Assembly (NCBI GenBank): GCA_902768105.1
Contig: CACXJZ010000010.1
Span: forward strand, 1-52,338
Direction of reading: 5' to 3'
Source of the DNA: an uncultured Prevotellaceae bacterium
GTDB lineage: Bacteria; Bacteroidota; Bacteroidia; Bacteroidales; Bacteroidaceae
Length of the DNA: 52,338 nucleotides
In this document: positions 1,897 to 37,468 of the stretch, one piece after another
How the letters are laid out: each line of letters opens with the position of its first letter
Numbering within the stretch: position 1 is the stretch's first letter
Notes under the pieces: model-generated
What the model saw: only the letters and a program-made list of their open reading frames with translations
Databases searched by the model: none
Told to the model about the DNA's origin: nothing
Made by a program: the position numbers and the translations under genes

Positions 1897-3891
1897 TCAA
1901 AACTTATAGGTAAGCTGGAGGTCAAGGTCGGTCATGGAGGAGTGGTCGATGAGCTGGCGATCGGTGCCGATGGTGGCGCGGTCGAAGTAGTTAGTGATGC
2001 CCAGCTTGGCGGTGAGGACAAGGCGTGAGGCGATGGTGCCTTGCGCCATGAGCCAGTAGCGGATGCCCTCGCCATAAAACATGGGGAAGGTGAACTGGTA
2101 ACGGGGTGCACGCTCGTAGAGGTAGAGCCGGGCGTCGTAGCTGTCGGTATGGAAATAGCCGAAGCCGGCATCGAGCTTCATGCTTCGCAAGGTGTAGGAC
2201 AGGCGTTCGCTGACCATGTAACCGAAGTCACGATTGTTGTAGTCGGTACAGGAGAAGTCGGCCTGCGTATGCAGCGTCAGCGCCGGGAGGACACTATAGG
2301 CGAAAGCGAAGCGTGCACGGTGCTCGGTACGGTTGACGAGCGTCTTCTTGTCGTCGGCATCACGCTGACGGATGTGCAGACGGTAACGTCCCGTCAGAGT
2401 CCAGTCGCGAGCAGTATAGGTGACCGAGAGCAGATTGTCCCACGCAAAGGACGACTGCGACACCTGGTACTTGGGGAAGGCAAACCAGGCATAGTCGGTA
2501 TAGGCCTGCAGCTGCAGACGGCGACGGGGCTGCCACGTGACACCCAGATAAAGGCCACTCTCGTTCTGGACGCGTCCGCCCTCGGCAAAGCTACGGGCAT
2601 GAAGGGCTGCGTAGCGGTAGCTGTAGAAACGTTGCAGGGCCATGATGCTGAACGTGCCTGATGGCTGGTAACTCAGGGCATTGACGGTGGCCAACGCACC
2701 ACTGCCATCGATGGCCGTCTCGCCATTGAGCGAGAGCCGATGGCTGGTATAGCGGTAGTCGAGCGAGGCATTGAAGAAATCGGTGCCGGCAGGATAGTAA
2801 TGACGATAGATGGCACTGGTGTTGGGGCGCAACTCACGAGAGAGATGGACGTAGGCAGCTGTTGCGCCCAGCCGGAGGCCACCGTGACGGTAAGCCAGAT
2901 GCAAGCCTGCATCGGTCTGCGTGAGGTTGTGTTTCTTCAGCACCTCGGCAGGCGTACGGTGGTAGCCGTCCGTGAGTAGCGTGGCTGCCGTGCCATTGCT
3001 GTTAAGCGTGGCATCGAGTGGACGGCAGGAGGCATACCCCGTAATCTGTAATCCGTAATCCTTTATCCCCAATGTGACGGCGGCGCCCTGCAGGTAGCCG
3101 TCCTCCATGCGTGAGGAATTGGGACGTATGAGCGTGTTACTGCGTCCCAAGTTCTGCAGCGTAGCCAGCTTACCGAAACTGAAACCGCCGTTCATGACCA
3201 GTCCCATGCCGAACGAGAGACGGTACTGACCAACGGCCAGCGTCTCAATAGGTCCCAGGCGGCTGAGCATGAGATACCAGGCATAATGGTCGTAGCCTGA
3301 GTTGTTGCCCTCGGCAAAGAACGGCTCGCCAGCATCCTGGGCACCCAAGAGTCCGAACTTGACACGTGTGCCGTAATGGAACTGGTAACGCAGGGTGTGC
3401 TTGTAGGGATAGCCCAGGTAGCCGTTGTCATCGCCCTTGCGCCGATAGAACGGCAGGCGGCCCGAGAAGGTCAGCTCGTGCTTCCCCCAGCGCAACAGGC
3501 TGTCAAGGCGAGGGAACGGCGGTTCCTTAGGCTGATGGCCCACATAGACGAAACACTGCAGCAGGCGGCGGCGCTCGTAGTCGAGCGAGGGAATCATCAG
3601 CAGCTCGCCCAGCGTCTGCAGTTCCCCATGCCTATGGCGATAGGCCATGATGTCTTCCACCTGCTGGTCGGAGAGGAAGGGCAGCACCTCGAGCTGCTCG
3701 CGGGTGGTAGCGTTGATGTCGAGGGGCTGGGCTTCCAGTGCATCGAGCATCTCACACGTTTCCTCCCACGACAACGACTCAGCGTCCTCAACGTCGGTGA
3801 GCTGAAGCAATGCCTGCTGCCACGACCAGTCGTCCTGGGCGCTGGCGGCGAGTGGAACGAGAAAGAAAAACACGAGCAGAATGTGTTTCAT
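1897..3891 (-). CDS. Helix-hairpin-helix protein with C-terminal outer-membrane barrel
   Basis: A 664-residue exported protein. A signal peptide (1-18, ends ASA-Q) is followed by an acidic segment and a ComEA-like helix-hairpin-helix region (about 56-115; LDINATTREQLEVLPFLSD is typical). From about residue 150 to the end the protein is rich in alternating-residue strands and closes with TYKF, like a barrel. This HHH-plus-barrel layout is common in Bacteroidota and its function is not established; DNA uptake has been inferred from the ComEA part only. Residues encoded by 3040-3067 (DYGLQIT) come from an in-frame 7-bp tandem repeat. The promoter at 3897-3927 sits so close to the ATG that the mRNA should be nearly leaderless. 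Confidence 0.7.
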   Translation of the reverse strand: MKHILLVFFFLVPLAASAQDDWSWQQALLQLTDVEDAESLSWEETCEMLDALEAQPLDINATTREQLEVLPFLSDQQVEDIMAYRHRHGELQTLGELLMIPSLDYERRRLLQCFVYVGHQPKEPPFPRLDSLLRWGKHELTFSGRLPFYRRKGDDNGYLGYPYKHTLRYQFHYGTRVKFGLLGAQDAGEPFFAEGNNSGYDHYAWYLMLSRLGPIETLAVGQYRLSFGMGLVMNGGFSFGKLATLQNLGRSNTLIRPNSSRMEDGYLQGAAVTLGIKDYGLQITGYASCRPLDATLNSNGTAATLLTDGYHRTPAEVLKKHNLTQTDAGLHLAYRHGGLRLGATAAYVHLSRELRPNTSAIYRHYYPAGTDFFNASLDYRYTSHRLSLNGETAIDGSGALATVNALSYQPSGTFSIMALQRFYSYRYAALHARSFAEGGRVQNESGLYLGVTWQPRRRLQLQAYTDYAWFAFPKYQVSQSSFAWDNLLSVTYTARDWTLTGRYRLHIRQRDADDKKTLVNRTEHRARFAFAYSVLPALTLHTQADFSCTDYNNRDFGYMVSERLSYTLRSMKLDAGFGYFHTDSYDARLYLYERAPRYQFTFPMFYGEGIRYWLMAQGTIASRLVLTAKLGITNYFDRATIGTDRQLIDHSSMTDLDLQLTYKF
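3040..3067 (-). repeat. 7-bp-period repeat inside the HHH/barrel gene
   Basis: Four consecutive heptamers on the plus strand: three fit YGTAATC and the fourth is CTTTATC. On the coding strand they read through in frame as part of KDYGLQITG. Confidence 0.65.
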
Positions 3892-3896
3892 GAATA

Positions 3897-3927
3897 CAAA
3901 AGTAGTAAATAATTGATAATGAACAAT
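3897..3927 (-). promoter_or_regulatory. Promoter of the HHH/barrel gene, leaderless arrangement
   Basis: On the minus strand ATTG (3924-3927), 19 nt, then TACTTTTG (3897-3904). Only 5 nt separate the -7 box from the ATG (3889-3891), so transcription should begin at or within about 2 nt of the start codon. Confidence 0.55.
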
Positions 3928-3941
3928 GGGTATTTGACAAT
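3907..3941. repeat. 7-bp-period A/T-rich repeat between divergent genes
   Basis: Five heptamers in register, four ending in AAT (NNANAAT) and one degenerate (GGGTATT). The repeat carries the -33-like box of the leftward promoter. Confidence 0.45.
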
Positions 3942-3948
3942 TATTTTA

Positions 3949-3956
3949 TAATTTTG
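3949..3956 (+). promoter_or_regulatory. Candidate -7 box of the DUF4294 gene
   Basis: TAATTTTG lies 8 nt before the ATG at 3965. The upstream TTTG (3933-3936) is only 12 nt away, shorter than the usual 19-21, so the -33 part is uncertain. If used, the 5' leader would be 0-3 nt. Confidence 0.35.
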
Positions 3957-3964
3957 CACGCAAA

Positions 3965-4594
3965 ATGAACACCAGAGGCATCATACTGGCATTAAACCTG
4001 CTGACCACGATGACGGCAGCGGCGCAGAGCGACCGGGCGAAACAGGACCTGGCCACAATGGAAAGTGCGTCGTTCGTGCCCCTAGTCAAGGTGGGCAAGG
4101 TGCTGGAGGACGGTGACTCCATTCAGTACATGGAGATGTATAACGTCTATGTGTATCCGGAGCTGGAGTTCAAGGACGAACGGCAGAAGCAGTCGTACCT
4201 GCGACTGGTGAAGAACGTGAAGACGGTGCTGCCCATTGCCAAGGAGGTGAACAAGATTCTCCTTGAGACAGCGGAATACTTAGACCGCCTGCCAACCAAA
4301 GAGGAGAAGGAAGCCCACATGAAACGCGTGGAGAAAGGCATCATGAAGCAATACAAGCCACGCATGAAGAAACTGACGTACTCGCAGGGCAAGCTGCTCA
4401 TCAAACTGGTGGACAGAGAGTGTAACTCGCCGGCCTACGACTTGGTCAAGGCGTTCCTGGGTCCCATTCGCTCGGGCTTCTACCAGGCCTTCGCGTGGGT
4501 CTATGGCGCAAGCCTGAAAAAGGAGTACGACCCTGACGGAACCGACCGCCTGACGGAGCGCGTGGTGCTGATGGTGGAGTCGGGACAGTTATAG
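3965..4594 (+). CDS. DUF4294 family protein, exported
   Basis: A 209-residue protein with a signal peptide (1-20, ends AAA-Q). The segment from about residue 52 (DGDSIQYMEMYNVYVYPEL) through the charged helical middle (KNVKTVLPIAKEVNKILLE) to FYQAFAWVYGASLKKEYDP matches the DUF4294 family of Bacteroidota as I know it. The molecular role is unknown. The length is normal. It runs divergently from the HHH/barrel gene; a palindromic G/C-rich element begins right after the stop codon. The first ATG is required for the signal peptide. Confidence 0.75.
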   Translation: MNTRGIILALNLLTTMTAAAQSDRAKQDLATMESASFVPLVKVGKVLEDGDSIQYMEMYNVYVYPELEFKDERQKQSYLRLVKNVKTVLPIAKEVNKILLETAEYLDRLPTKEEKEAHMKRVEKGIMKQYKPRMKKLTYSQGKLLIKLVDRECNSPAYDLVKAFLGPIRSGFYQAFAWVYGASLKKEYDPDGTDRLTERVVLMVESGQL

Positions 4595-4599
4595 GGGCC

Positions 4600-4655
4600 C
4601 CACCCCAAGACCAGACCCACCACCAACCCCTCCCTGTTGAGGGAGGGGAGGGATT
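4600..4655 (-). repeat. G/C-rich palindromic element, copy A
   Basis: CCCTCCCTGTTGAGGGAGGG forms the palindromic head (4629-4648). Read on the minus strand, a TTGGTGGTGGGTC-type tail follows, as in copy B. It fills most of the 65-bp gap between the DUF4294 and glutaminyl cyclase genes. Confidence 0.55.
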
Positions 4656-4659
4656 ACTA

Positions 4660-5742: not shown

Positions 5743-5753
5743 GAGCGCAGAAT

Positions 5754-7583
5754 TTACTCCTTAACTTGCTGTACCTGAGTCATGACACGGAGGAAGTTGC
5801 CTCCCCAGATGGCCTGGATATCACGCTCAGAGTAACGGCGCAGCATGAGCTGACGGGTGAAGTTGAGTAACTCTGACGAGTTGGCTAGGCCGCGTATGCC
5901 GCCGTCGCCGTCAAAATCGGTTCCCAAACCTACATGGTCAATACCCATCACCTGGATGGCATGCTCCAAATGCTGCATGGCATCGAGGACAGTTGCCTCG
6001 CCCTCCTTGCGGAGGAAGCCGGGATAGAGCGTCACCTGCATTACACCGCCTGCAGCGGCAAGGGCACGCATCTGCTCGTCGGTAAGGTTGCGAGGATGGT
6101 CGCGCAACGCACGACAGCTGCTGTGCGAACAGACGATAGGCTGCCCGCTGATGTCGAGCGCATCGTAGAAGCTCTTTTCGCCTGCATGACTCAAATCGAC
6201 CATGATGCCCAGACGGTTCATCTCACGGATAACCTGTTCGCCGAAGAGCGACACGCCGCCATGCGTGTTACAGCCTCGGGCAGAGTCACAGATGTCATTG
6301 TCACCGTTGTGGCAAAGCGTCATATAGACGATGCCACGCTGGGCGAAATGGCGCAGCGTCTGCAGGCTGCCGTTGAGCGCCAGACCGTTCTCTATACCCA
6401 GCATGATGCTCTTGCGCCCGTCACGCTTGTCCTTATAGAGGTCGGCAGGAGTACGTGCAATACTCAGATAGTCCTTATGCTCGTCAACAATGGCTTCTAT
6501 CTTGTCAAAGATGAGGTCGGCATACTCCGTGGGGGTGATGGCTGACGGCTGAGGGCTGTCGGCTGAGGGATTATGGACCAACGACGAGAAGGTTTCGCCA
6601 ATCTTGGGCTGTGGCAGGTAGGCCACCATGATGGTGGCATCCTGATGACCTTCTGTCATCTTGTGCAAATCGACAAGGATGCGAGGGTCGCGACTGCCGA
6701 AGTCGATACCTTGCGAGAAAAGCATGGGCGTGTCGCAATGGGTATCGAGGGTGAGCACGCGCTGGTGGAGCTGGCAGGCTTCACGGTAATGAGCTGCCTG
6801 ACGGACGAGCCACTGGAACAGCGGCAGGCCTTCGTCCAAGCACTCGGGATGCCACTGCACACCTATGATGCTCTTGAACTCGCGACTCTCCATAGCCTCA
6901 ATGACGCCATCAGGAGCTGTGGCGGTGACACGGAAACGCTGTCCCGGGTCATCGACAGCCTGATGGTGGAAAGAGTTGACATAGAGGAGCCTCCCCCTAT
7001 CCCCCTCCGAAGAGAGGGGGTGCAAAACCTCCTTATATATATTATATAATGTGGACTCGGGGTCTATGGTGACGCTATGGGTGGGCTCGGAGCGACGCGC
7101 ATCCTGCGAATGCTTGAGATTCCCCCTCCCTTCGGAGGGGGTGAGGGGGAGGCTCTGCCTTACGTGGCCACCGAGTGCCATCGCCAGCGTCTGGATACCG
7201 CGACAGATGCCAAGCATGGGTATCTGACGGTTATAGGCCAGCTGGGTCAGCATCAGTTCAGGCATATCGCGCTCGGTATTGATGCCACCTAACCCTGGCT
7301 GCGGCTCCTCGCCACAGTAGAGGGGGTTGTAGTCGGCACCACCACTGAGCAGCAGACCGTCGATGTGCTCCAACGTATTGAGGATGGCATCGGTATCGCT
7401 GAGCGGAGGGATGATGACCGGCACACCGCCTGCCCGCAACACCGACTTGTAATAAGCCTCACCCAGCTTGCAGTCGGGCTCGGCATAATTGCCCGTGATA
7501 CCAATAACGGGCTTGCGCTGAGCCTCTGGGAACGTCGCATAGACGCCCGACAGCTGCGACTGCCAGTCAAACCTATTGCTCAT
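5754..7583 (-). CDS. C26-type glutamine amidotransferase-like domain fused to M19 dipeptidase
   Basis: A 609-residue two-domain enzyme without signal peptide. Residues about 20-270 are a peptidase C26 (gamma-glutamyl hydrolase) domain: GICRGIQ with nucleophile C127 and QWHPE with H245/E247. Residues about 280-605 are a membrane-dipeptidase (M19) domain: DTHCDTP, ENG, LSHAG, CSHSSCRAL and GLGTDFDGDG supply the metal site. The pair suggests hydrolysis of gamma-glutamyl and dipeptide compounds, perhaps glutathione-like or murein products. Three foreign-looking insertions are translated in frame: palindromic elements at about 144-156 and 186-199, and a 7-bp repeat at about 339-348. It follows the Lrp-type gene by 2 nt (tag-tt-atg) and is in its operon. 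Its end is 11 bp from the convergent cyclase gene. Confidence 0.8.
   Translation of the reverse strand: MSNRFDWQSQLSGVYATFPEAQRKPVIGITGNYAEPDCKLGEAYYKSVLRAGGVPVIIPPLSDTDAILNTLEHIDGLLLSGGADYNPLYCGEEPQPGLGGINTERDMPELMLTQLAYNRQIPMLGICRGIQTLAMALGGHVRQSLPLTPSEGRGNLKHSQDARRSEPTHSVTIDPESTLYNIYKEVLHPLSSEGDRGRLLYVNSFHHQAVDDPGQRFRVTATAPDGVIEAMESREFKSIIGVQWHPECLDEGLPLFQWLVRQAAHYREACQLHQRVLTLDTHCDTPMLFSQGIDFGSRDPRILVDLHKMTEGHQDATIMVAYLPQPKIGETFSSLVHNPSADSPQPSAITPTEYADLIFDKIEAIVDEHKDYLSIARTPADLYKDKRDGRKSIMLGIENGLALNGSLQTLRHFAQRGIVYMTLCHNGDNDICDSARGCNTHGGVSLFGEQVIREMNRLGIMVDLSHAGEKSFYDALDISGQPIVCSHSSCRALRDHPRNLTDEQMRALAAAGGVMQVTLYPGFLRKEGEATVLDAMQHLEHAIQVMGIDHVGLGTDFDGDGGIRGLANSSELLNFTRQLMLRRYSERDIQAIWGGNFLRVMTQVQQVKE
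6540..6567 (-). repeat. 7-bp-period repeat inside the C26/M19 gene
   Basis: Four perfect-register heptamers fitting GGCTGWS on the plus strand, translated on the minus strand as SADSPQPSA in a loop of the M19 domain. Confidence 0.7.
6984..7031 (+). repeat. G/C-rich palindromic element, copy C
   Basis: The stem CCCCCTC/GAGGGGG (7001-7007/7014-7020) is preceded by AGCCTCCCCCT. It is nearly identical to copy D read on the other strand. Translated on the minus strand as VLHPLSSEGDRGR. Confidence 0.65.
7117..7160 (-). repeat. G/C-rich palindromic element, copy D
   Basis: A perfect 8-bp stem CCCCCTCC/GGAGGGGG (7122-7129/7134-7141) with a CTTC loop, then a GAGGGGGAGGCT tail. Opposite orientation to copy C, about 100 bp away. 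Translated as SLPLTPSEGRGN. Confidence 0.65.
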
Positions 7584-7585
7584 AA

Positions 7586-8047: not shown

Positions 8048-8069
8048 ACTAATTTGTTCTTAGCGGAAG

Positions 8070-8101: not shown

Positions 8102-8138
8102 ATTTTGCGCGAAAATTTGCGATTTTCGTAACAAAAGT

Positions 8139-10002: not shown

Positions 10003-10031
10003 TTTATAATTTAATGTTTAATGTTTTAATG
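10003..10031. repeat. 7-bp-period repeat between two FKBP genes
   Basis: TTTATAA, two perfect TTTAATG units and an 8-bp TTTTAATG on the plus strand. On the mRNA strand this is the CATTAAA-type unit also found after pnp and after the Mfa2-like gene. Confidence 0.55.
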
Positions 10032-10038
10032 TCTGATA

Positions 10039-10767: not shown

Positions 10768-10795
10768 CACTTCGCACCTTTCGCTTTTCACTTAA
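10768..10795. repeat. 7-bp-period repeat overlapping the rplM leader promoter
   Basis: Four heptamers close to CRCYTTT; the same unit as the AGTGAAA repeat after rpsB, on the other strand. It covers the -33 region of the promoter that follows. Confidence 0.5.
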
Positions 10796-10810: not shown

Positions 10811-10985
10811 AGTCCGATTTCAAGGGGAGAGTCTTAGAATCCCCACAGGACAAGTGTGTAAATAGTGGTGTCTTTGGCCGGGCATAACGGTTTGTGAATC
10901 ACTGGTTCAAGGGCGGTGAAAGTCCGCTAAGCGTATCGTTAGACTACCATGCAGGGAGTTAGACCTCTGCGGGTTGTTTTTGTGC
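10811..10985 (+). ncRNA. Structured leader RNA upstream of rplM-rpsI
   Basis: Between a promoter and rplM lies about 170 nt with nested helices: GTCC/GGAC (10812-10815/10848-10851) around GGGGA/TCCCC (10824-10828/10840-10844); GCGG/CCGC (10913-10916/10924-10927); and a terminator-like hairpin GCAGGG/CTCTGC (10951-10956/10965-10970) followed by GGGTTGTTTTT. This looks like a ribosomal-protein leader with an attenuator, 50 nt before the rplM ATG. A leader for L13 has been described in Bacteroidia, but I cannot check whether it is this one. Confidence 0.55.
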
Positions 10986-11033: not shown

Positions 11034-11495
11034 ATGAACACTTTAAGTTACAAGACCGTTTCCGCCAATAAGGAAACTGCTAAGAAGGAGTGGGTGGTTA
11101 TTGATGCCACAGACCAGGTTGTTGGTCGTCTCGCTTCGAAAGTAGCGAAGCTGATTCGCGGAAAGTACAAGCCCAACTTCACACCCCACGTGGATTGTGG
11201 CGACAACGTCATTATCATCAACGCCCAGAAGGTTGTCTTCACTGGTAAGAAAGAGACCGACAAGGTTTACACCCGCTACACAGGCTATCCCGGTGGACAG
11301 CGCTTCAACACGCCGGCAGAGCTCCGCAAGAAGCCCTTTGGCACCGAGCGCATCATCCGTCACGCTGTTAAGGGCATGCTGCCCAAAGGCCCCCTCGGTC
11401 GCAGCCTGCTGAACAACCTCTACATTTACGAAGGCACTGAGCACAAGCACGAGGCTCAGAAGCCCAAAGCAATTGATATTAACCAGTATAAATAA
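11034..11495 (+). CDS. rplM: 50S ribosomal protein L13
   Basis: A 153-residue ribosomal protein uL13. Recognisable segments are WVVIDATDQVVGRLASKVAK (20-39), GKYKPNFTPHVDCGDNVIIIN, the YTRYTGYPGG loop and the MLPKGPLGR motif. Length is normal for Bacteroidota. It is the first gene of the rplM-rpsI pair, 10 nt before rpsI, and follows a structured leader with a possible attenuator, so autoregulation is likely. Confidence 0.97.
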   Translation: MNTLSYKTVSANKETAKKEWVVIDATDQVVGRLASKVAKLIRGKYKPNFTPHVDCGDNVIIINAQKVVFTGKKETDKVYTRYTGYPGGQRFNTPAELRKKPFGTERIIRHAVKGMLPKGPLGRSLLNNLYIYEGTEHKHEAQKPKAIDINQYK

Positions 11496-12034: not shown

Positions 12035-12889
12035 ATGTCAAGAACAAATTTTGATATGTTGCTGGAGGCCGGATGTCACTTCGGTCACCTCACACGCAAG
12101 TGGAACCCCGCAATGGCTCCCTACATCTATACCGAGCGTAACGGTATTCACATCATCGACCTGCACAAGACAGTAGTAAAGATTGATACTGCTGCCGAGG
12201 CTCTGAAGCAGATTGCCAAGAGTGGCAAGAAGATCCTGTTCGTCGCTACTAAAAAACAAGCTAAGGAAGTGATCGCTGAGAAAGCTACCAGCGTAAACAT
12301 GCCTTACGTTATCGAGCGCTGGCCGGGCGGTATGCTTACCAACTTCCCGACTATCCGCAAGGCGGTCAAGAAAATGGCGAACATCGACAAGCTGATGCAG
12401 GACGGTACGTTCGGAAACCTCTCAAAGCGTGAGCTGCTGCAGATTACCCGTCAGCGTGCCAAGCTGGAGAAGAACCTCGGTTCTATCGCTGACCTGACTC
12501 GTCTGCCCAGCGCCCTGTTCGTGGTTGACGTAATGAAGGAGAACATCGCTGTACGCGAGGCAAACCGTCTGGGTATTCCCGTATTCGGTATTGTTGACAC
12601 CAACAGCGACCCCAAGAACATTGACTTCATCATCCCTGCCAACGATGACGCTAAGGACAGCGTAGAGGTAATCCTCAACGCTTGCTGTGCCGCCATCAAC
12701 GAGGGTCTGGAGGAGCGCAAGGCTGAGAAGGCCGACGAGAAGGCTGCCGACGCACAGGCTGAGGCCGAGGCTGAAGAGGTAAAGCCCAAGCGCACCCGTA
12801 AGCCCCGCAAGGAAGAGGCTCCCGCCGAAGCTCCCGTAGCTGAGGAGGCTGCTGCTCCTGCAGAAGAAAAGGCTCCCGCCGCTGAATAA
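12035..12889 (+). CDS. rpsB: 30S ribosomal protein S2
   Basis: A 284-residue uS2. The core (about 1-228) has LLEAGCHFGHLTRKWNP, YIYTERNGIHIIDLHKT, FVATKKQAKE, WPGGMLTNF and VDTNSDP. Residues about 229-284 are an Ala/Glu/Lys/Pro-rich low-complexity tail (EAEAEEVKPKRTRKPRKEE), longer than in E. coli but common in Bacteroidota. It precedes tsf as in most bacteria. The 88-nt gap to tsf consists largely of two 7-bp-period repeats, the first beginning in the stop codon. Confidence 0.97.
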   Translation: MSRTNFDMLLEAGCHFGHLTRKWNPAMAPYIYTERNGIHIIDLHKTVVKIDTAAEALKQIAKSGKKILFVATKKQAKEVIAEKATSVNMPYVIERWPGGMLTNFPTIRKAVKKMANIDKLMQDGTFGNLSKRELLQITRQRAKLEKNLGSIADLTRLPSALFVVDVMKENIAVREANRLGIPVFGIVDTNSDPKNIDFIIPANDDAKDSVEVILNACCAAINEGLEERKAEKADEKAADAQAEAEAEEVKPKRTRKPRKEEAPAEAPVAEEAAAPAEEKAPAAE

Positions 12890-12916
12890 GTGAAAAGTGA
12901 AGAGTGAAAAGTGAAT
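12889..12916. repeat. 7-bp-period repeat starting at the rpsB stop codon
   Basis: Four heptamers fitting AGTGAAD in exact register; the first base is the last base of the rpsB stop. Confidence 0.7.
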
Positions 12917-12936
12917 AATTTGCTGCCGCTCGGAAC

Positions 12937-12972
12937 ATTTAAATTGTAAATGGTAAATTTTAAAATTGTAAA
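12937..12972. repeat. 7-bp-period repeat just before tsf
   Basis: Four heptamers ending TAAA plus an 8-bp one, reaching to 6 nt before the tsf ATG. Confidence 0.55.
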
Positions 12973-12977
12973 TTAAA

Positions 12978-13976
12978 ATGGCAATTTCAATTGACGATAT
13001 CAAGAAGCTTCGCGCTATGACCGGCGCTGGTCTGGCTGACGTAAAGAAGGCTCTGACCGAGGCTGAGGGCGACTTCGACAAGGCAAAGGAGCTGCTGCGT
13101 GAGCGTGGCCTTGCCATCGCTGCTAAACGCAGCGACCGTGAGACATCTAACGGTTGTGTTCTCGTAAAGGCTGTTGACGGCTTTGCTGCCACCATCGCCC
13201 TGAAGTGTGAAACCGACTTCGTTGCTAACGGTGCAGACTTCATTGCACTGACACAGAGCATCCTCGACGCTGCCATCGCAGCCAAGGCGAAGGACATCGA
13301 GGCTGTGAAGGAGCTGGTTCTGGCTGATGGCCAGAAGGTTCAGGACGCTGTAACACAGCGTTCAGGTATCACCGGTGAGAAGATGGAGCTGGACGGTTAC
13401 AACGTTCTCGAAGGCGACAACATCGAGGTTTATGACCACATGGGCAAGCATACACTGGCTACTATGGTACAGACCAACATCGCTGCTCCTGAGGTAGGTC
13501 ACAAGCTGGCTATGCAGGTAGCTGCTATGAAGCCCGTTGCTTTGGACGCAGAGAGCATCGACCCGAAGATTCTGGACGAGGAGTATCGCACAGCCGTTGA
13601 GAAGACCAAGCTGGAGCAGGTTCAGAAGTATGTGGACATGAAGATTAAGAAGGCTGGTATCAACCCCAACCTCGTTGACTCTGAAGACCACATTGAGAGC
13701 AACATGTCAAAGGGCTGGCTCACTCAGGAACAGGCTGACGAGGCTCGTAAAATCATTGCTGAGGCTAAGCCCGAGGGTGAGGCTCAGCTGAAGATGCCCA
13801 TGATTGAGGGTATTGCCAAGGGTCGTGTTGAGAAGTTCAAGAAGGAGAGCTGCCTGGTTGACCAGGAGTTCCAGTTCGGCGACGGCGACAAGCAGACTGT
13901 TACACAGTGGCTCGCCCAGCAGAACAAGGAGCTGAAGATTGTTGCTTTCAAGCGCTTCACGCTCGTTGCAGAGTAA
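12978..13976 (+). CDS. tsf: Translation elongation factor Ts
   Basis: A 332-residue nucleotide exchange factor for EF-Tu. The N-terminal UBA-like domain (KLRAMTGAGLADVKKALTEA, about 9-28) and the TDFVA motif (KCETDFVANGADF, about 76-88) are present, followed by the dimerisation core. The length is that of the longer Bacteroidota form. The gene ends 20 nt before a strong terminator whose T-run nearly touches the next start codon. Confidence 0.96.
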   Translation: MAISIDDIKKLRAMTGAGLADVKKALTEAEGDFDKAKELLRERGLAIAAKRSDRETSNGCVLVKAVDGFAATIALKCETDFVANGADFIALTQSILDAAIAAKAKDIEAVKELVLADGQKVQDAVTQRSGITGEKMELDGYNVLEGDNIEVYDHMGKHTLATMVQTNIAAPEVGHKLAMQVAAMKPVALDAESIDPKILDEEYRTAVEKTKLEQVQKYVDMKIKKAGINPNLVDSEDHIESNMSKGWLTQEQADEARKIIAEAKPEGEAQLKMPMIEGIAKGRVEKFKKESCLVDQEFQFGDGDKQTVTQWLAQQNKELKIVAFKRFTLVAE

Positions 13977-21545: not shown

Positions 21546-23882
21546 ATGAATGTAATTACAAAGAGTATTCAATTGCCCGATGGAAGAACCATCACAATTG
21601 AGACCGGGAAAGTGGCAAAGCAGGCCGACGGAAGCGTTGTTCTCCGCATGAACAACACCGTTCTTCTCGCCACTGTTTGTGCCGCAAAAGATGCAGTTCC
21701 CGGAACAGATTTCATGCCTTTGCAGGTGGATTATCGTGAACAGTACAGTGCAGCCGGTCGTTTCCCCGGCGGTTTCACCAAGCGCGAAGGCAAGGCCAGT
21801 GACAACGAAATCCTGACGAGCCGTCTGGTTGACCGCGTGCTCCGTCCGTTGTTCCCGTCAAACTATCACGCAGAAGTTTTTGTCAACGTAATGCTGCTCA
21901 GCGCCGACGGCGTCGATCAGCCCGATGCATTGGCAGGTTTTGCAGCATCGGCAGCGTTGGCATGTTCAGATATCCCCTTCGAATGCCCCATCTCTGAGGT
22001 TCGCGTTGCTCGCGTGAACGGTGAGTATGTCATCGACCCCACGTTCGAGCAGATGAAGGAGGCCGACATGGACATCATGGTTGGTGCCTCTGCCGAGAAC
22101 ATCATGATGGTGGAAGGCGAGATGAAGGAAGTTTCAGAGCAGGACATGATTGGTGCGTTGAAGGCTGCTATGGCTGCCATCAAGCCCATGTGTGAACTGC
22201 AGACCGAGCTGAGCAAGGAGCTTGGCAAGGACGTGAAGCGCGAGTACGACCACGAGGTGAACGACGAGGAACTGCGTGAGCGCATGAACAAGGAACTCTA
22301 CCAGCCCGCTTACGACATCACCAAGCAGGCTCTCGAGAAGCAGGCTCGTGCAGAAGCCTTCGAGAAGATTCTGACTGACTTCAAGGAGAAGTATGCTGCT
22401 GAGCACAGCGACCTCACGGAAGACGAGCTGGAAGAGAAGTACGCCATGATGGACCGCTACTACCACGACGTAGAGCGTGACGCCATGCGCCGTTGCATCC
22501 TCGACGAGGGCATCCGTCTCGATGGTCGTAAGACTGACGAGATCCGTCCCATCTGGTGCGAGGTTTCTCCGCTGCCCATGCCTCACGGAAGCTCTATCTT
22601 CACCCGCGGTGAGACACAGAGCCTCTCTACCTGTACGCTGGGTACCAAACTCGATGAGAAGCTGGTTGACGATGTGCTCGACAAGAGCTATCAGCGCTTC
22701 CTGCTCCACTATAACTTCCCCCCGTTCTGCACGGGTGAGGCCAAGGCACAGCGCGGCGTAGGCCGTCGTGAGATTGGTCACGGACACCTGGCATGGCGCG
22801 GTCTGAAGGGTCAGATTCCCGAGGACTTCCCCTACACCGTACGTCTGGTGAGCCAGATTCTGGAGTCGAACGGTTCTTCATCAATGGCTACCGTCTGCGC
22901 CGGCACGCTGGCACTGATGGACGCTGGTGTTCCCATGAAGAAGCCCGTTAGCGGTATCGCTATGGGTCTGATTAAGAACCCCGGCGAAGACAAGTATGCC
23001 GTGCTGAGTGACATCCTCGGCGATGAGGATCACCTGGGCGACATGGACTTCAAGACCACCGGTACAAAGGATGGTCTGACTGCTACTCAGATGGATATCA
23101 AGTGCGACGGTCTGAGCTTCGAGATTCTGGAGAAGGCCCTCATGCAGGCTAAGGCTGGTCGTGAGCACATTCTGAAGTGCATCACCGACACCATTGCCGA
23201 GCCGCGTCCTGAGCTGAAGCCGCAGGTTCCGCGCATCGAGCAGTTCGAGATACCCAAGGAGTTCATTGGTGCTGTCATTGGCCCTGGTGGTAAGATTATC
23301 CAGCAGATGCAGGAAGACACCGGTGCTACCATCACCATCGACGAGGTTGACGGCGTAGGTAAGATTCAGGTGAGCGGTCCTAACAAGGAGAGCATCGACG
23401 GTGCCATCGCCAAGATTAAGGCTATCGTTGCCATTCCTGAGGTGGGCGAGGTCTATGACGGTGTCGTTCGCAGCATCATGCCTTACGGCTGCTTCGTAGA
23501 GATTATGCCCGGCAAGGACGGTCTGCTCCACATCAGCGAGATTGACTGGAAGCGTTTGGAGACTGTCGAAGAGGCAGGCATTAAGGAAGGCGACCACATC
23601 CAGGTGAAGCTGCTGGAGATTGACCCGAAGACCGGTAAGTACAAGCTCTCACACCGTGTGCTCGTTGAGAAACCCGAGGGTTATCAGGAGCGTCCCGCAC
23701 GCCGTGAGCGTCCCGAGCGTGGCGAGCGTCGTCCCCGTCCCGAGCGCGGTGAGCGTCGTCCTCGTCCCGAGCGTGGCGAGCACCGTCCCCGTCCCGAGAA
23801 GAACAACGACGAGTACCATGATCCCGCAGAGAATCGCGAGCCCAAGGACTTCAGCGATGCTCTCGACCACATGGACTTCTAA
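21546..23882 (+). CDS. pnp: Polyribonucleotide nucleotidyltransferase
   Basis: A 778-residue 3'-to-5' phosphorolytic exoribonuclease. Two RNase PH domains (about 5-230 and 320-545; [20 protein letters not shown] and the second-site [14 protein letters not shown]) flank a helical linker. A KH domain (about 560-620; [16 protein letters not shown]) and an S1 domain (about 630-700; [15 protein letters not shown]) follow. The last 75 residues include a basic tail of 9-residue repeats (RPERGERRP). It is monocistronic, with a promoter inside an inverted repeat and a strong terminator. Confidence 0.96.
23709..23807 (+). repeat. 27-bp coding repeats in the pnp tail
   Basis: Three full units start at 23709, 23736 and 23763 with a partial fourth at 23790, exactly 27 bp apart, coding RPERGERRP-type repeats. 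Confidence 0.8.
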
Positions 23883-23901
23883 CATTAAAGATTAAACATT
23901 A
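23881..23901. repeat. 7-bp-period repeat starting in the pnp stop codon
   Basis: Three heptamers fitting AASATTA. The first base pair lies within the TAA stop of pnp. Confidence 0.6.
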
Positions 23902-23902
23902 A

Positions 23903-23944
23903 AAAACACGGCTTACTAAACATTTAGTAGGCCGTGTTTTTTTT
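23903..23944. terminator. Bidirectional terminator between pnp and the GH95 gene
   Basis: AAAACACGGC (23903-23912) pairs with GCCGTGTTTT (23931-23940), with an inner ACTAAA/TTTAGT stem. T-runs lie on both strands. Confidence 0.85.
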
Positions 23945-23969
23945 AACCTTCAACCCTCAACCTTCAACC
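23942..23969. repeat. 7-bp-period repeat containing the GH95 stop codon
   Basis: Four heptamers fitting YTYAACC. On the minus strand they read GGTTGAA, and the GH95 stop TGA (23964-23966) is inside the array. Confidence 0.65.
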
Positions 23970-26288
23970 TTTTAGCTTCACCTCTTGTCCAGGTTTCGTG
24001 GGGGCATCGTAGATGATGCGTTCACCGTAGCGCACACGTAGCTGGCCGCCGATGCTGGAGCGTATCTTGGCTTCCGTCAGCTTGCCGTCTTTCCATTTGA
24101 TGTCAACAAAGAACCCACCACGGGCACGCAGGCCCTTTACCTCACCTGTAGGCCAAGCCGAAGGCAGGGCAGGCAGCAGGTCGATGGCACCGTCATGACT
24201 CTGCAGCAACATCTCGCAGATGCCTGCGCAGCAGCCGAAGTTTCCGTCAATCTGGAACGGCGGATGAGCATCGAACAGGTTAGGGTAAGTGCCGCCATGA
24301 GCGCCCCACTCCACCGAGTCAGGTATCAGCGTCAGCATGTTCTTGATGATCTGGTACGCATGGTCGCCATCATGCATGCGCGCCCAGAAGTTGATCTTCC
24401 ATCCGAGACTCCAGCCCGTAGCCATGTCACCGCGCTGCTTCAGCGTGGTAGCGGCAGCAGCAAAGAGCTCCGGCGTGCGATAAGGCGAAATCTGGTCTGA
24501 CGGGTACAGGCCGTAGAGGTGCGAGATGTGTCGGTGCTGGTCGTTGGGGTCATCACCGTCAATCATCCACTCCTGCAGCTGTCCGTACTTGCCTACCTTC
24601 ATCGGCGGAATCTTCTGGAGTGCAGACTGAAGTGTAGAGAGTGAGGCATCGCTGATGCCGAGTACCTCAGCCGCCTTGATGGTCTGACTCAGCACATCGC
24701 GCACAATCTGATTGTCCATTGTTGAACCTGCTGTCACAGTAGTACGCTTTCCCATAGGTCCATGCTCTGGCGATACGGTGGGAACGGTGACCAAATACTC
24801 ACCCATCGGCTGCATATAGTCAATGAGGAAGTCGGCAGCGCCCTTCATCACGGGATAGTACTTGCGCAGGAAGTCCTTGTCGCCCGTAAACAGGTAGTGT
24901 TGCCAGAGATGAGTGGTAAGCCATGCTCCACCCGTGGGGAACATGCCCCAGGTAGTGCCGTCCACCGGTCCGGCAATGCGCCAGAGGTCGGTATTGTGGT
25001 GAGCCATCCAGCCGCGACAGCCGTACATCTCCTGTGCTGTGATGGCGCCCGTCTCGCTCAGGTCCTTGATCATGTCGAACAGCGGCATCTGCGTCTCAGC
25101 GAGGTTAGCTACCAATGCCGGCCAGTAGTTCATCTCGGCATTGATGTTGATGGTGTATTTCGAGTCCCACGGGGCATTCAGCTTGTCGTTCCACACGCCC
25201 TGCAGGTTAGCGGGCTGTCCGCCAGGCTGCGACGAGGAGATCAGCAGGTAGCGTCCGTACTGCATCATCAGCGATACCATGTCAAGGTCGGTACCATCGA
25301 AAGAGGCGAGGCGCTGGTCAGTGGGAATCAGAGTATTCTGAGTATTAGTCAGGGTCAGCGATACGCGGTCATACTGCTCCTGATACTTCTTCAAGTGACG
25401 GTTCAGCAGCTTCTTATACGACATTCCCTTGATGCCAGCCAGTATCTGGTTGTTCTTCTTCACGGGATTGCCGCTGATGTCGTGGTAGTTGACGTAGTTG
25501 GTGGCAGCGGTGATGTAAAGCGTTGCTGTGGTAGCATTAGTCACCATCAGCGAACTGGCGCCACGCTCTATCTTTCCGTCAGCCTCAATCAATATGCGTG
25601 CCTCGGCTTTCAGTCCGGCCTTGATGCCTTCCTGTTCCACACCGTCCACAACGGCAGCCAGTTCATTAACAGAGCCTACTCCTTCGTGGTTGGATACGGT
25701 AAAGACCTGAGCGGGTAGCTGGCTGTCGAATCCTATGTTGAACGACAATGCCCCTTTCTTGCTGGCCGTCAGACGAACGACGATGACGTTATCAGCCTGC
25801 GAGGCAAACACCGTACGCTCATACTTTACACCTTTATATATATAAGAGGTGGTGGCAAGGGCGTTGCGGAGACTCAGCTCACGACGGTAATTCTGAACAT
25901 CCGTGTGGCCCAGCTTCAGCTTCATGCTTCCCAATGGCAGGTAGCGCATGCCGTGCGGTCCCTTGAAGAAATGCTGGTCAATGATGGCGTGAGCCGCTTC
26001 TTCTTTACCCGCAAAGATGGAGTCGCGCACCTGCTGGAGATACTGCTTTGCCTCCGGACTATTATTGTTGTGGGGCGAACCGCTCCAGAACGTTTCCTCG
26101 TTCAGCTGTATCTCCTCCGTGTCCGTACCGCCATACACCATCGCACCCATGTGACTGTTGCCGACGGGTAGTGCGTCGAGCCAGTGACGTGCAGGCTTAT
26201 CATACCATAACTTGTGGTTTTGCGCCGTGGCATTCAGCGCCGTACAGCATACCATGATGCCAATAAATACCTTGATAATTCTCTTCAT
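23964..26288 (-). CDS. GH95 glycoside hydrolase, probable alpha-L-fucosidase or alpha-L-galactosidase
   Basis: A 774-residue exported enzyme acting on fucosylated glycans or xyloglucan-type side chains. Signal peptide 1-22 (ends ATA-Q). The N-terminal beta domain (about 28-260) starts [23 protein letters not shown], a GH95 hallmark. The catalytic (alpha/alpha)6 region carries INAEMNYWP (N383, N387), QLQEW (likely catalytic E573) and QIDGNFG (D681), and a C-terminal beta domain follows. No lipobox or T9SS tail, so periplasmic. The last residues and stop are shared with a 7-bp repeat. Divergent from the membrane protein at 26403. Confidence 0.92.
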
Positions 26289-29858: not shown

Positions 29859-29872
29859 AGGAAGGATAAAGC

Positions 29873-29910: not shown

Positions 29911-29928
29911 ATTATCAGCTGTTAAGTC

Positions 29929-31974: not shown

Positions 31975-32011
31975 ATTTCGTGTTTAGTTATTGACGCTTC
32001 ACTTTCGTCTG

Positions 32012-32043
32012 CAAAGTTACGAATAAGTGAGCAAAATGCCAAA
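32012..32043 (-). promoter_or_regulatory. Promoter of the GH51 gene
   Basis: On the minus strand TTTG (32040-32043), 20 nt, TAACTTTG (32012-32019). Confidence 0.65.
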
Positions 32044-32137
32044 TATATTTACAATACTTTCTATGCAGAAAACGGAAGAAAATGTGAAAAAATATTAAAA
32101 GAATAGGGTGTGTTGCCTGATTATCAAGAAGAAGTCC

Positions 32138-32145
32138 TATCTTTG
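32138..32145 (+). promoter_or_regulatory. -7 box of the fimbrial operon
   Basis: TATCTTTG; a TTG at 32113-32115 lies 22 nt upstream. The first ATG is at 32204. I looked for inverted repeats flanking it, as in phase-variable promoters, and found none. Confidence 0.55.
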
Positions 32146-32203
32146 CGTTTAAGATAATTAACACTAATAACGAAATCAAAAAATATTTACTAACAAAAAT
32201 ACC

Positions 32204-32791: not shown

Positions 32792-32805
32792 CACATCTGA
32801 TCATT

Positions 32806-34263: not shown

Positions 34264-34314
34264 GAGAGAGAAATAACATAACAATAATTATTAATCTAAA
34301 AACAAAATTTATCT

Positions 34315-36207
34315 ATGAAGAAATTAAGTTTCTTGGCAATAGCAGCCTTAGGCCTGCTGTTTGCTGCCTGCTCGTCAGACAAGGACGTGGCAGATCAGGG
34401 AGGAACCGACGTCTTGAAAGGAAAGGCTGAGGGTTTCTTTAAGATTAACATCAATCTACCGACTGCACCTGTTGTTTCTACACGTGCATGGGACGAAGAT
34501 GCAACTGGGACTTTGGCTGATGGACTTGAGACAGAGTATGCTGTTGAGAAAGTTCTATTGCTCCTTTTCGATGGAACTAGTGAGAGCGCAGCTACACTGA
34601 AGCAAGTCATTGATTTAGGTGACTGGAATAAAGATGTGTATAGTGATACTCCTAACCAGATTACTACACGAAAGGACGACTACATTGCTCAACTGAAGAG
34701 CGCTCCTGCGAATAATTTGTACGCGCTGGCTGTCATCAACCCCAATGGCATTATTGCTGCTGGTACTGCTGACAACATGTTGGTAGTAAAGGGCGAAACA
34801 CTTACTGCACCAACTTTGGCAGGCATCAATGCAAAGCTTGCTGAGTCAGATGACGTTTCTACCAATGACTTTATAAAGATTGATGGTACGAAAAAATACT
34901 TCTTTATGACCAATGCTGTGCTGAGCAACACAATTGGTGGTACAACGAAGCCCGCCTCATCCATTGCTCTTCAGACGTTAGCTACAGTTGACAAGTCGTT
35001 CATCTACGACACCGAGGCTAAGGCCACGACTGGTAATGCTGCCGTAGATATTTATGTAGAGCGCGCAGTTGCCAAAGTAACTTTGAATGCTTCAGACACA
35101 AAATATCTATCTACCACGGGTTTGACTGCAAGCACTGGTCTGACACTGGATGCATCACTGGCAGGATGGTCTCTTGACAACACAAATAAAACTTCTTACA
35201 TCATCCGTCAAGTACCTTCAACCTTCTCTTGGGATCTGTGCAGCTTTAGCGCTGCAGCAGGAGTTGACAAATATCGTTTCGTAGGTGGCAATCCTGTTGA
35301 CCCAGCTGTGGCTCTTTACAGAACTTACTGGGCCGAAGATCCCAACTATAGTGGTGCATATGATGCAAATAACTTCTCGAACATAGAGGCTTCAGCTATC
35401 ACAAACACAGCTGTTGGTGAGGGCAATCCTCTCTACTGCTTTGAGAACACCTTTACAGTTCTCAACCAGACATTCCAGAACACCACACGCACCATCATTG
35501 CCGTGAAACTGACAACTGGCGACGATAATTTCTATGTTATCGGTGCTGACCGCAAGACTCTATACACCGAAAATGATGTCAAGAATAAGATTAAGGAATA
35601 CATTATGTCTCAGCCTGCATTTGTTGAATGGTACAATGATCCTGCAGATAATAAAGGTGGTAAAGGAACTCTCTCTGGAAACAACTTGACCGTTACCTTT
35701 GACAAGTCTACTGCTGGTAAGCTAACTGTTGTTTCATTTACAATTCCCGCAGCTAATACCGATGCCAATACAGCCATTACGATCACATCTTCTTCTAACG
35801 ACGTTGAAGGCCACGATTTGAGCGGTGTCATCGCTACACTGAACACTCAGCTGAACAACGTTGAGCGTTTTGTTGGTGGTATTGCATACTATAGTATTCG
35901 CATTAAGCACTTCGGCGATGATTTGACACCATGGAATAACGGTGAGTACCTGACTGCTCCGAAGGAAAGCGGCATTGATGACATCTATCCTGATGATGCT
36001 CGCCGCGATGCCAACTATCTGGGTCGCTATGGTATGGTTCGTAACAACTGGTACGACCTGAACATTCAGGAGATTTTGAAGATTGGTAGCTCTACCATTC
36101 CTGAGTTGACAACCCATCCTGATGACGAGTTGGAAGATCTTTACATCAAGGCTCGCATCAACATCCTGTCGTGGGCTAAGCGTCCACAGAACTGGCAACT
36201 GAAGTAA
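34315..36207 (+). CDS. Major fimbrillin, Mfa1/FimA type
   Basis: A 630-residue lipoprotein precursor (Cys19 in LLFAACSSDKD). A first strand (GFFKININLP) is followed by VSTRAW with R57, matching the site where arginine-specific proteases trim FimA/Mfa1 precursors to allow strand exchange. VEKVLLLLFDG, NLYALAVINPNG and VDIYVERAVAKVTL are fimbrillin strand motifs, and the C-terminal segment (NNWYDLNIQEILKIGSSTI ... ARINILSWAKRPQNWQLK) fits the fimbrillin C-terminal domain. It is longer than Mfa1. The codon use is more A/T-rich than the genes before it. A stable stem-loop follows the stop. Confidence 0.85.
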   Translation: MKKLSFLAIAALGLLFAACSSDKDVADQGGTDVLKGKAEGFFKININLPTAPVVSTRAWDEDATGTLADGLETEYAVEKVLLLLFDGTSESAATLKQVIDLGDWNKDVYSDTPNQITTRKDDYIAQLKSAPANNLYALAVINPNGIIAAGTADNMLVVKGETLTAPTLAGINAKLAESDDVSTNDFIKIDGTKKYFFMTNAVLSNTIGGTTKPASSIALQTLATVDKSFIYDTEAKATTGNAAVDIYVERAVAKVTLNASDTKYLSTTGLTASTGLTLDASLAGWSLDNTNKTSYIIRQVPSTFSWDLCSFSAAAGVDKYRFVGGNPVDPAVALYRTYWAEDPNYSGAYDANNFSNIEASAITNTAVGEGNPLYCFENTFTVLNQTFQNTTRTIIAVKLTTGDDNFYVIGADRKTLYTENDVKNKIKEYIMSQPAFVEWYNDPADNKGGKGTLSGNNLTVTFDKSTAGKLTVVSFTIPAANTDANTAITITSSSNDVEGHDLSGVIATLNTQLNNVERFVGGIAYYSIRIKHFGDDLTPWNNGEYLTAPKESGIDDIYPDDARRDANYLGRYGMVRNNWYDLNIQEILKIGSSTIPELTTHPDDELEDLYIKARINILSWAKRPQNWQLK

Positions 36208-36227
36208 GAATCATTTTTCCTATACTG

Positions 36228-36259
36228 TTGTGTGGCTGCCCAAGGCGGCAGCCACACAA
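36228..36259 (+). other. Stem-loop between major fimbrillin and anchor genes
   Basis: A perfect 13-bp stem, TTGTGTGGCTGCC with GGCAGCCACACAA, and a 6-nt loop. It is followed by TAAAC rather than a T-run, so RNA stabilisation or partial termination is more likely than a full stop. A second small hairpin CCCC/GGGG lies near 36295-36311. Confidence 0.7.
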
Positions 36260-36349
36260 TAAACAAAAAGAATAATCATCGCTGACGCGGAGCGTCCCCA
36301 CGAAACAGGGGAAACGGCTTCCGCCAAAGGGGATAAAACAGACAATCGC

Positions 36350-37423
36350 ATGAAACTGAAGAAATATCTTGTAGCACTTGTATCACTCGCAATGCTTGCC
36401 AGCTGCGACATGATGAAAGAGGATGAAGACCTGACCAACTGCGGACTCTTCGTTACCTTCAAGTACGACTATAACCTGCAGCGCTCCGACATGTTCGGCG
36501 ACCACGTAGGCGGCGTAACGCTGTATGTATTCGACAGCGACGGACGCTTTGTCCGTACCTACGAGAACAACAACATCCCCAGCATGGCGATGATGCTCGA
36601 CGGCACCTACACTCACGCCATGCAGATAATGGACCTGCCTGACGGCAAGTACCGCCTCATAGCACTGGCCAACCAGAAGAGCTATGAAGCGACGCTCGCC
36701 ACACCGGGCGCCAAGTATCGTCGCACGCAGCTGGCACAGGGCGACGAGAACGAGAAACTGACGGTAACACTGGACCGCACCAAGAAAGAAGGAGCTACCG
36801 CGATGGTCAGCAACGTGGCTCCGCTGGATACGCTGTGGCACGGCATGACAGGCGTTGAAACTGTCGAGGTACGTAGCAGCGACAAGACCATTGCAAACAT
36901 CTCGATGGTTCGCGACACGAAGATGCTGACCATCGGACTGCATAACCTGGACGACCCTGCGGACATCACGACCGAGGAGTTTGACTACTTCATCATTGAC
37001 AAAAACGGAAAGCTGGCCTACAACAACAGCCTGTTGGCCGACGAAGACCTGACATATACCCCATTCTACAAGTGGGACACTGACAACAGCGAACTGAACA
37101 GCGGCGTGGCTACGGAGCGTACTGCCCATGCCTGCCTGACCTTCAACCGCCTGATATGGCACGAGAAGAGCGACGACAACGCCCTGCTCATTATCCGCAA
37201 CCGCACGACCGGCAAAGAGGTGTGCGCCATCGACCTGGCCTACTTCCTGGCACAGGGGCGCAACGCCTACGACCTCTTCGCCTACTCAAGGCAGGAGTAT
37301 CTGGATCGTGCGTACGATTTCTACATGGACTTCTTCATCCGCAACGACAAGTGGCAATATGCCGAGGTGCGCATCAACGTCCTCTCGTGGGCTATGCGCA
37401 TACAAAATGTTGATTTGGAATGA
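36350..37423 (+). CDS. Fimbrial anchor/length-control protein, Mfa2/FimB family
   Basis: A 357-residue lipoprotein (Cys19 in LAMLASCDMMKED). The start of the mature protein, CGLFVTFKYDYNLQRSDMFGDHVGGVTLYVFD, is the hallmark of the Mfa2/FimB family, which caps and anchors the base of Mfa1/FimA pili. The C-terminus again ends in INVLSWAMRIQNVDLE. Unlike the fimbrillin-like neighbours it has no TR-A/G processing site after the first strand, as expected of a base subunit. It follows the major subunit after 142 nt of structured RNA, so its level is probably lower. Confidence 0.88.
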   Translation: MKLKKYLVALVSLAMLASCDMMKEDEDLTNCGLFVTFKYDYNLQRSDMFGDHVGGVTLYVFDSDGRFVRTYENNNIPSMAMMLDGTYTHAMQIMDLPDGKYRLIALANQKSYEATLATPGAKYRRTQLAQGDENEKLTVTLDRTKKEGATAMVSNVAPLDTLWHGMTGVETVEVRSSDKTIANISMVRDTKMLTIGLHNLDDPADITTEEFDYFIIDKNGKLAYNNSLLADEDLTYTPFYKWDTDNSELNSGVATERTAHACLTFNRLIWHEKSDDNALLIIRNRTTGKEVCAIDLAYFLAQGRNAYDLFAYSRQEYLDRAYDFYMDFFIRNDKWQYAEVRINVLSWAMRIQNVDLE

Positions 37424-37426
37424 GGA

Positions 37427-37468
37427 AACATGAAAGATTAAACATGAAACATTAAAGATTAAATTATA
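37427..37468. repeat. 7-bp-period repeat after the anchor gene
   Basis: Six heptamers in exact register; five fit AASATKA and the last is AATTATA. It begins 4 nt after the stop and ends 6 nt before the next start. Confidence 0.72.

Follow-up and report, generated by a model that had tools for sequence, protein, structure and literature searches.

The window analysed here is a 52,338-nt stretch (contig C10) of the 2.70-Mb draft genome of an uncultured Prevotellaceae bacterium (G000; 86.5% complete), and the feature under study lies in its rpsB–tsf spacer. There, a tandem array of four 7-bp units (heptads) is followed by a 13-bp core. This array, the best in the window, is very probably an arm of a mobile palindrome that is short and non-autonomous, referred to below as the element. 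The coordinates of all features are given in Table 1.

An arm of the element consists of four heptads (AGTGAAR and variants, 28 bp) and the 13-bp core AATTTGCT[G/A]CCGC. The core AATTTGCTGCCGC was found in 22 exact copies in the genome, versus 0 for the reversed control, and heptads precede most of the 30 copies listed (the 22 exact ones and eight with one mismatch). For the conservation profile 173 core sites were pooled, seven of which are chance matches in unrelated species. Conservation is 1.14 bits at position −28, 0.62 at −29 and 0.26 at −30, and lag-7 identity drops from 0.78 over the 28 bp adjoining the core to 0.29 over the next 28 bp outward. An array (lag-7 identity of at least 0.6) is present at 150 of the 173 sites; the seven chance matches are among the other 23. 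Of 34 AGTGAAR arrays in stretches of this genome, 29 have four units (length divided by 7 and rounded). Nothing evident would make slippage halt at four units, and the AGTGAAR array was taken to be a defined arm. The heptad before the core is AGTGAAG in most copies of this genome and GAGGAGA or TTTAAAG in a few; among relatives it is AGTGAAA in G041 and genus g14, and AATGAAG in G056 and G059.

In relatives, two arms occur in inverted order around a loop, giving a hairpin of about 41 bp; single arms occur too. The two-arm set comprises 39 distinct elements, most of them from loci chosen because they hold pairs. They have 82 bp of arms, that is, 41-bp terminal inverted repeats, and loops of 11–59 bp (one of 127 bp), with 22–31 bp in 28 of the 39. 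Eight chosen two-arm elements were folded, and all eight formed hairpins (−54 to −72 kcal/mol, z scores of −10.6 to −17.7). The heptads of the two arms match at 0.842 within an element and at 0.810 with class-matched arms of other elements, and 18 of 2000 permutations reached the observed value. The loops of genus g14 (18 aligned) share a weak common pattern. Direct tandem clusters of the element, with a step of 46–48 bp, were also seen.

The distribution of the element is patchy within one bacterial family, probably the Bacteroidaceae. The exact core was found in 19 of 60 genomes of the genus (several as single matches without an array), and arm plus core with at most one mismatch in 23 of 201 genomes of the family, in eight of 30 genera; both counts include G000. 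The genome G213 (genus g14) holds 75 sites at up to two mismatches. In the phylum sample, exact matches were confined to two of 395 genomes, one of them G000 and the other with a single site. A scan of named genomes with an 18-mer core returned eight stretches, of which only L105 (uncultured rumen Prevotella) has a partial context, with a decayed array; the other seven were rejected as element copies and are chance matches. Among IMG/VR viral contigs, the pattern is present in 59 stretches with 68 core sites, including one two-arm pair; 18 are in open frames, and many arms fall short of four clear heptads. In three sampled viral stretches, six of eight proteins match PHROG families, including that of a head maturation protease; one of these stretches has the element in frame within a DarB-like antirestriction gene. 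The viral stretches L375, L380 and L353 have one heptad or none before the core and other short repeats (AATTCGTTA-like) ahead of it, which may show shortening of the arm or a change of unit. A tblastn search with a 45-residue element peptide gave no match in PLSDB (plasmids) or INPHARED (isolate phages), where low-complexity filtering may hide matches. No known RNA family was found at the elements of five sources; the one match was the L13 leader of the window.

Copies are also found in protein genes. Of 175 distinct arms (arms, not elements), 39 stand in open frames with at least 40 codons on both sides, some of which may be spurious in GC-rich genomes. Nine of these proteins were compared with solved structures; in every case the alignment covers sequence both before and after the element. 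Relative to 3o6x, the GSIII (glnA) of this genome has residues about 510–544 extra, and in its nitrilase residues 227–269 replace ten residues of 6mg6. CarB of G006, RNase R (rnr) of G041 and LacZ of G059 align either side of the element to 5dot, 8cdu and 6sd0, respectively. The copy in FeoB of this genome lies in the linker between FeoA and FeoB_N (Pfam). The translated arms read mostly SEE(L/C)RVKSEEFAAA and AAANSSLFTLHSSL, with another frame used in some copies (GSKFFTLHSSLFT). Read-through copies have AGTTAAG or AGTGTAG in place of the heptad whose in-frame TGA would stop translation. A short secreted-type protein (L128:11331-11975) has an N-terminus and lipobox-like stretch seemingly built from element arms (FTLHSSLFTLSSC).

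The sites of two of these genes were compared between species. The GSIII insert is present in none of 29 congener GSIII loci, among which paralogues were not sorted out. For CarB, 27 of 29 other loci were compared (L315 and L317 were missed by the search expression); the close congeners L301–L310, L313 and L314 have a 16-residue native loop at the site, which is longer in L311 and L312, and distant loci have a shorter turn. As the 29 congener GSIII loci and the close CarB congeners have a native variable loop at the site, the element appears to replace residues there and not merely to be added.

Many copies stand at promoters or gene ends. A −7-like box, called with the −7 consensus, is found on the heptad side of 17 of the 22 exact cores of this genome and in 9.0% of 5600 background windows. 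The end of the box is 35–38 bp from the core in 16 of these 17 and at 23 bp in the other one; nine of the 22 cores have such boxes on both sides. Several of the both-sided copies have a T-rich period-8 array before the second box. Period-8 arrays (ATTTTTAC, AAAAAGGT) were likewise noted at L025, L026, L027, L030, L039 and L040, several of them between the core and the forward −7-like box. In G020 and G037, though not in the other 28 loci compared, an arm lies directly behind the stop codon of polynucleotide phosphorylase (PNPase). At L235 (G039, downstream of PNPase) an array of TTCTAGATG/TTCTAGATA with period 9 and a higher-order period of 18 occupies the position where G020 and G037 carry the arm. 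Operons can also hold two-arm copies, as between two genes in L091.

Period-7 arrays in general were scored at lag 7 (match +1, mismatch −2, threshold 10), and shuffles were made ten times with an order-3 Markov model. The window has exactly eight lag-7 arrays, at 3041, 6536, 10010, 12888, 12940, 23884, 23945 and 37425, versus 0.0 in its ten shuffles; lags 4, 5, 6, 8 and 9 give 1, 0, 1, 0 and 1 arrays, respectively. An initial annotation of the window had listed twelve heptad sites, and their coordinates and units are present in the sequence as described. Eight of the twelve pass the lag-7 test; those at 3907, 5036, 10768 and 31481 fall below the threshold and are without a period-7 row in Tandem Repeats Finder, although the one at 10768 has the look of a decayed arm. 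Four of the listed sites (3040, 5036, 6540 and 31481) lie inside long open reading frames (ORFs). The units do vary from site to site, as had been proposed, but they group into families (AGTGAAR, AACATTA/AAGATTA, GAGGAGA and others).

Table 1. Repeat arrays, element parts and neighbouring features of the window.
Feature	Coordinates	Strand	Remarks
CGTAATC array	3041-3068	.	Inside minus-strand ORF 1897-3891 (HHH_3 motif)
GGCTGAN array, 14-bp higher order	6536-6569	.	Inside minus-strand ORF 5754-7583
AACATTA-family array (TTTAATG on plus)	10010-10032	-	Flanked by two FKBP-type isomerase genes
Decayed arm without core, AGTGAAA-like	10768-10795	-	Just upstream of TACCTTTG -7-like box and L13 leader; sub-threshold score
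L13-Bacteroidia ribosomal leader	10824-10900		RF03127, 68 bits; follows closely on -7-like box and decayed arm at 10768
rpsB, ribosomal protein S2	12035-12889	+	PF00318, E 1.5e-90
One-arm array, four heptads AGTGAAA AGTGAAG AGTGAAA AGTGAAT	12889-12916	+	Starts in last base of rpsB stop codon
Element core, 13 bp, AATTTGCTGCCGC	12917-12929	+	Directly after 12889-12916 array; form used in exact-copy count
Second period-7 array, A-rich, TAAATTG-like	12940-12974	+	Between core and tsf start; like G051 array at same site
tsf, elongation factor Ts	12978-13976	+	TIGR00116
AACATTA/AAGATTA array	23881-23903	+	Begins at polynucleotide phosphorylase stop codon
GGTTGAA-type array (minus-strand reading)	23945-23971	-	Far side of terminator-like hairpin; overlaps GH95 gene end
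AACATTA/AAGATTA array	37425-37463	+	Spacer after Mfa2-like gene

Behind the L13 leader, the ORFs at 11034 and 11506 are probably rplM and rpsI. At 23881-23971, period-7 arrays (AACATTA and GGTTGAA) flank both sides of a terminator-like hairpin between convergent genes, each array running from a stop codon. The window also encodes the type IX secretion system (T9SS) sortase PorU; with the L13-Bacteroidia leader and the rumen Prevotella L105, the only named Bacteroidota record in which the core was found, this suggests Prevotella or a close genus. Downstream of the Mfa2-like gene and unassigned genes an ORF of 3429 residues (40626-50915) probably encodes a giant surface protein.

Rates for the genome as a whole were taken from 14 stretches (280 kb) that were picked arbitrarily and not randomised; an earlier sample of 20 stretches was partly hit-selected and was excluded from the rates. 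The 14 stretches contain 1, 3, 23, 11 and 12 arrays at lags 5, 6, 7, 8 and 9. Of the 23 lag-7 arrays, 12 are intergenic and 11 are in ORFs according to a crude gene caller, which predicts too many ORFs; with the same caller, lag-9 and lag-12 arrays are mostly in ORFs. The intergenic pieces alone give nine arrays at lag 7 (0.1 expected), five at lag 8 (0.0 expected) and four at lag 4 (0.15 expected), with none at lags 5 and 6 and two at lag 9. Control stretches from other Bacteroidota families (18 stretches, 306 kb) have four arrays at lag 7 and three at lag 8, and 50 kb of Escherichia coli MG1655 have none at either lag. Congeners with the core (ten stretches, 200 kb) have 11 arrays at lag 7 and six at lag 8, and in congeners without it (nine stretches, 180 kb) lag 8 leads lag 7 by seven to two. 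There is thus a real excess of arrays, shared by periods 7 and 8, and in this genome it is strong. The initial annotation had proposed a fixed period of 7, which a strong excess over periods 5, 6, 8 and 9 would support, and had named as evidence against it a period 7 no commoner than its neighbours. In this genome period 7 is commoner than its neighbours, so the excess stands; in the 280-kb sample period 7 exceeds periods 5, 6 and 9, and period 8 is in excess as well. Since period 8 is also present, and ahead in some congeners, the ruler is 7 to 8 bp and not 7.

Arrays without the core behave differently from element arms. The AACATTA family has 3–8 units in 19 arrays. At the 20 loci viewed, AACATTA arrays often fill the whole distance between a stop codon and the following start codon. 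The idea that they form another element, with a core of their own, was rejected, no common flank being apparent by eye at the 20 loci. The rpsB–tsf spacer was compared across 30 genomes of the genus; a significant array (shuffle p of at most 0.05) is present in 15, a count lowered by the automatic assignment of the rpsB stop, which shortened some spacers (e.g. L149 and L156). The best period is 7 in six of the 15 and 8 in another six, and the remaining three have 6, 9 and 12, respectively; the units include AAAAAGGT, AACATTA, TAAATAG, AATTAAG and AGTTTAA. The slot is often kept between species while the unit is not, and the site is filled by the element in G000 versus an array only in G051. 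A further unit family (AACTCGTC, period 8) recurs in L186 (G029; 148-220 and 8319), a congener without the core.

The best explanation for the core-less arrays is slippage with a preference for 7–8 bp, tolerated in A-rich spacers. The other period-7 and period-8 arrays in similar spacers would then be slippage products tolerated where length and sequence matter little. A preference for period 7 and an explanation by a polymerase that measures length have been published (PMC4679880 and PMC4692102, which credit a 2007 survey in the text available). The same process could in principle account for the AGTGAAR arrays too: the polymerase would duplicate loops of 7–8 bp, mismatch repair would miss them and frame-breaking lengths would persist mainly in intergenic DNA. 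The intergenic excess of both periods, the variable copy number of AACATTA, the differing units at the one rpsB–tsf site and the published polymerase idea all suit such an account, which is probably right for the arrays without a core. Extended to the whole set it is unlikely, leaving unexplained the common 13-bp core, the unit number of four in 29 of 34 arrays, the inverted pairs with a loop, the patchy spread across the family and the in-frame copies in unrelated genes. The proposal of the initial annotation, a copying process set to a length of 7 bp rather than a mobile sequence, therefore survives only in part: the AGTGAAR arrays belong, as four-unit arms, to a dispersed element whose core is conserved, and the remaining arrays are best read as length-measuring slippage.

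For the AGTGAAR arrays we favour a mobile palindrome. It would spread by copying from site to site, perhaps pass between hosts via phages, and be moved by a partner that may be a transposase or the replication machinery. Besides the possibly spurious share of the open frames, several observations weigh against it. No movement of the element was observed, the comparisons all being between species. Among the 39 two-arm elements no target-site duplication was detected: 4-nt direct repeats flank one of the 39 (0.72 expected), and the mean shared word is 2.97 nt versus 3.08 nt after shuffling. Target duplications are described as waning with age (available part of PMC10969869), so that older copies may have lost them. 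No partner enzyme was found; no transposase was recognised in five stretches of this genome with nearby arms, where ORFs were judged by eye and no profile search was made. The net gain is only about 11 residues in the HisRS of this genome (versus 6nhi) and about nine in the epimerase of G022 (versus 4zrm), and in DnaE of G033 (versus 2hpi) and IspG of this genome (versus 3noy) the element lies within a longer unaligned stretch. To judge from the aligned loci, the replacement of residues in GSIII and CarB would be unlike a clean insertion. The two-arm length (82 bp plus loop) is divisible by three in only eight of 39 elements, so its size does not favour keeping the frame. Finally, the near-fixed spacing between core and box suits the copying of a promoter cassette, or a function, as well as it suits insertion.

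An improbable variant of mobility would fit some of these points. In it, a 'patching' mobile DNA would replace dispensable DNA (spacers, regions upstream of promoters, enzyme loops) without target duplication, and its machinery would rewrite all four heptads together; the unit (AGTGAAG, AGTGAAA, AATGAAG or GAGGAGA) could then change while number, position and arm complementarity stayed fixed. The missing native loops of GSIII and CarB, the lack of target duplications, the varied units before the same core and the match of arms within an element fit such a process but do not prove it.

Two further readings were weighed against the mobile palindrome. The heptads and core could be a protein-binding array of divergent promoters that was multiplied by selection and is not mobile; the boxes at 17 of the 22 exact cores, their spacing of 35–38 bp in 16 of these and the nine cores boxed on both sides speak for such a regulatory site. 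We hold it to be decidedly unlikely, given that the element also occurs in coding genes, between rpsB and tsf, after stop codons and in IMG/VR contigs, and that, of 60 genomes in the genus, 41 are without the exact core. The other reading is a palindrome of the REP/BIME type whose mover would be a RAYT (Y1) transposase. It might be suggested by the high-copy palindromes on both strands, their pairs and tandem clusters, the GTAG contained in the A-type core read backwards and a Y1 match over the cut-off in eight of 16 element-bearing relatives searched (G041, G031 and G059 included). We regard it as very unlikely: Y1 (PF01797) has no match in G000 (86.5% complete), G213, G172, G056 and G032, has only sub-cut-off matches in G186, G140, G073 and G022 and is over the cut-off in four of ten zero-copy genomes searched as well, so that there is no clear association and Y1 does not appear to track the element; REPs are 20–40 bp long (PMC3733652, in the part available).

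The systems compared below are described as in the available portions of the cited papers. Heptamer repeats are known: TAACTGA from Beggiatoaceae, Cyanobacteria and five Bacteroidetes, and GGGAATC from Xanthomonas (PMC4679880, PMC4692102). The initial annotation knew of no heptamer system in this phylum; Bacteroidetes heptamer repeats have been published already (PMC4679880). Like the arrays here, these are short runs of heptads in intergenic DNA that vary in length or sequence among related strains; in one genome most of them immediately precede start codons, and two Bacteroidetes have other heptamers in the same spacers. The text available reports neither a core nor an inverted arm for them (PMC4679880, PMC4692102), whereas one of the unit families here is part of a hairpin element. 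Two look-alike causes of heptamers, four-unit element arms and variable-length arrays, can be separated here.

REP/BIME and CGTC-tagged palindromes resemble the element in being high-copy and in occurring as pairs and clusters, the CGTC type in Bacteroidetes, Rickettsia, Wolbachia and others (PMC3733652). The element differs from them in its copies inside genes, its larger stem, the lack of CGTC in arm or core and a Y1 that does not appear to track it. The BrickBuilt MITE of Porphyromonas gingivalis is of the same phylum, dispersed, based on tandem repeats and carries promoter elements, but its repeats are of 23 nt and always intergenic (PMC4596501), whereas 7-bp repeats in palindromic arms and in-gene copies are found here. 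Judged as a MITE, the element has terminal inverted repeats (the 41-bp arms) and shows no target-site duplication. In-frame fusions have also been described for small repeats of Neisseria, enterobacteria and Yersinia (the 107-bp Correia/NEMIS of Neisseria, ERIC/RU-1, YPAL/RU-2 and RU-3; PMC2229807); these are proteobacterial, and the available portion of that source mentions no tandem heptads in their arms. Coding palindromes have also been described in Nematomorpha mitochondria (PMC6649704), as has palindromic repeat coding sequence (PMC2996958). We found no report of a protein-coding palindrome of Bacteroidota in the open-licence literature.

By analogy, the element appears to act most like the Rickettsia palindromic elements (RPE), a likeness in form and siting. 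RPE and their Wolbachia counterparts are dispersed palindromes of about 100–150 bp with long stem-loops, and RPE occur both between genes and in frame in unrelated conserved genes, DNA polymerase III alpha being a host gene in both cases (PMC3767692, PMC2229807, PMC10969869). Unlike RPE, the element has a Bacteroidota host, arms of four 7-bp direct repeats with a 13-bp core, a single-arm form at promoters and a presence in viral contigs. How RPE spread and why proteins tolerate them are given as open questions in the available text of the same papers; a counterpart in gut-type Bacteroidota would make both testable, with up to 75 sites per genome, copies in viral contigs and housekeeping genes that have solved homologues. 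For annotators, the peptides SEELRVKSEEFAAA or AAANSSLFTLHSSL in such proteins mark repeat-derived sequence. In-frame palindromes are thus known, notably as RPE; protein-coding palindromes with heptad arms in Bacteroidota appear to be a new form of them.

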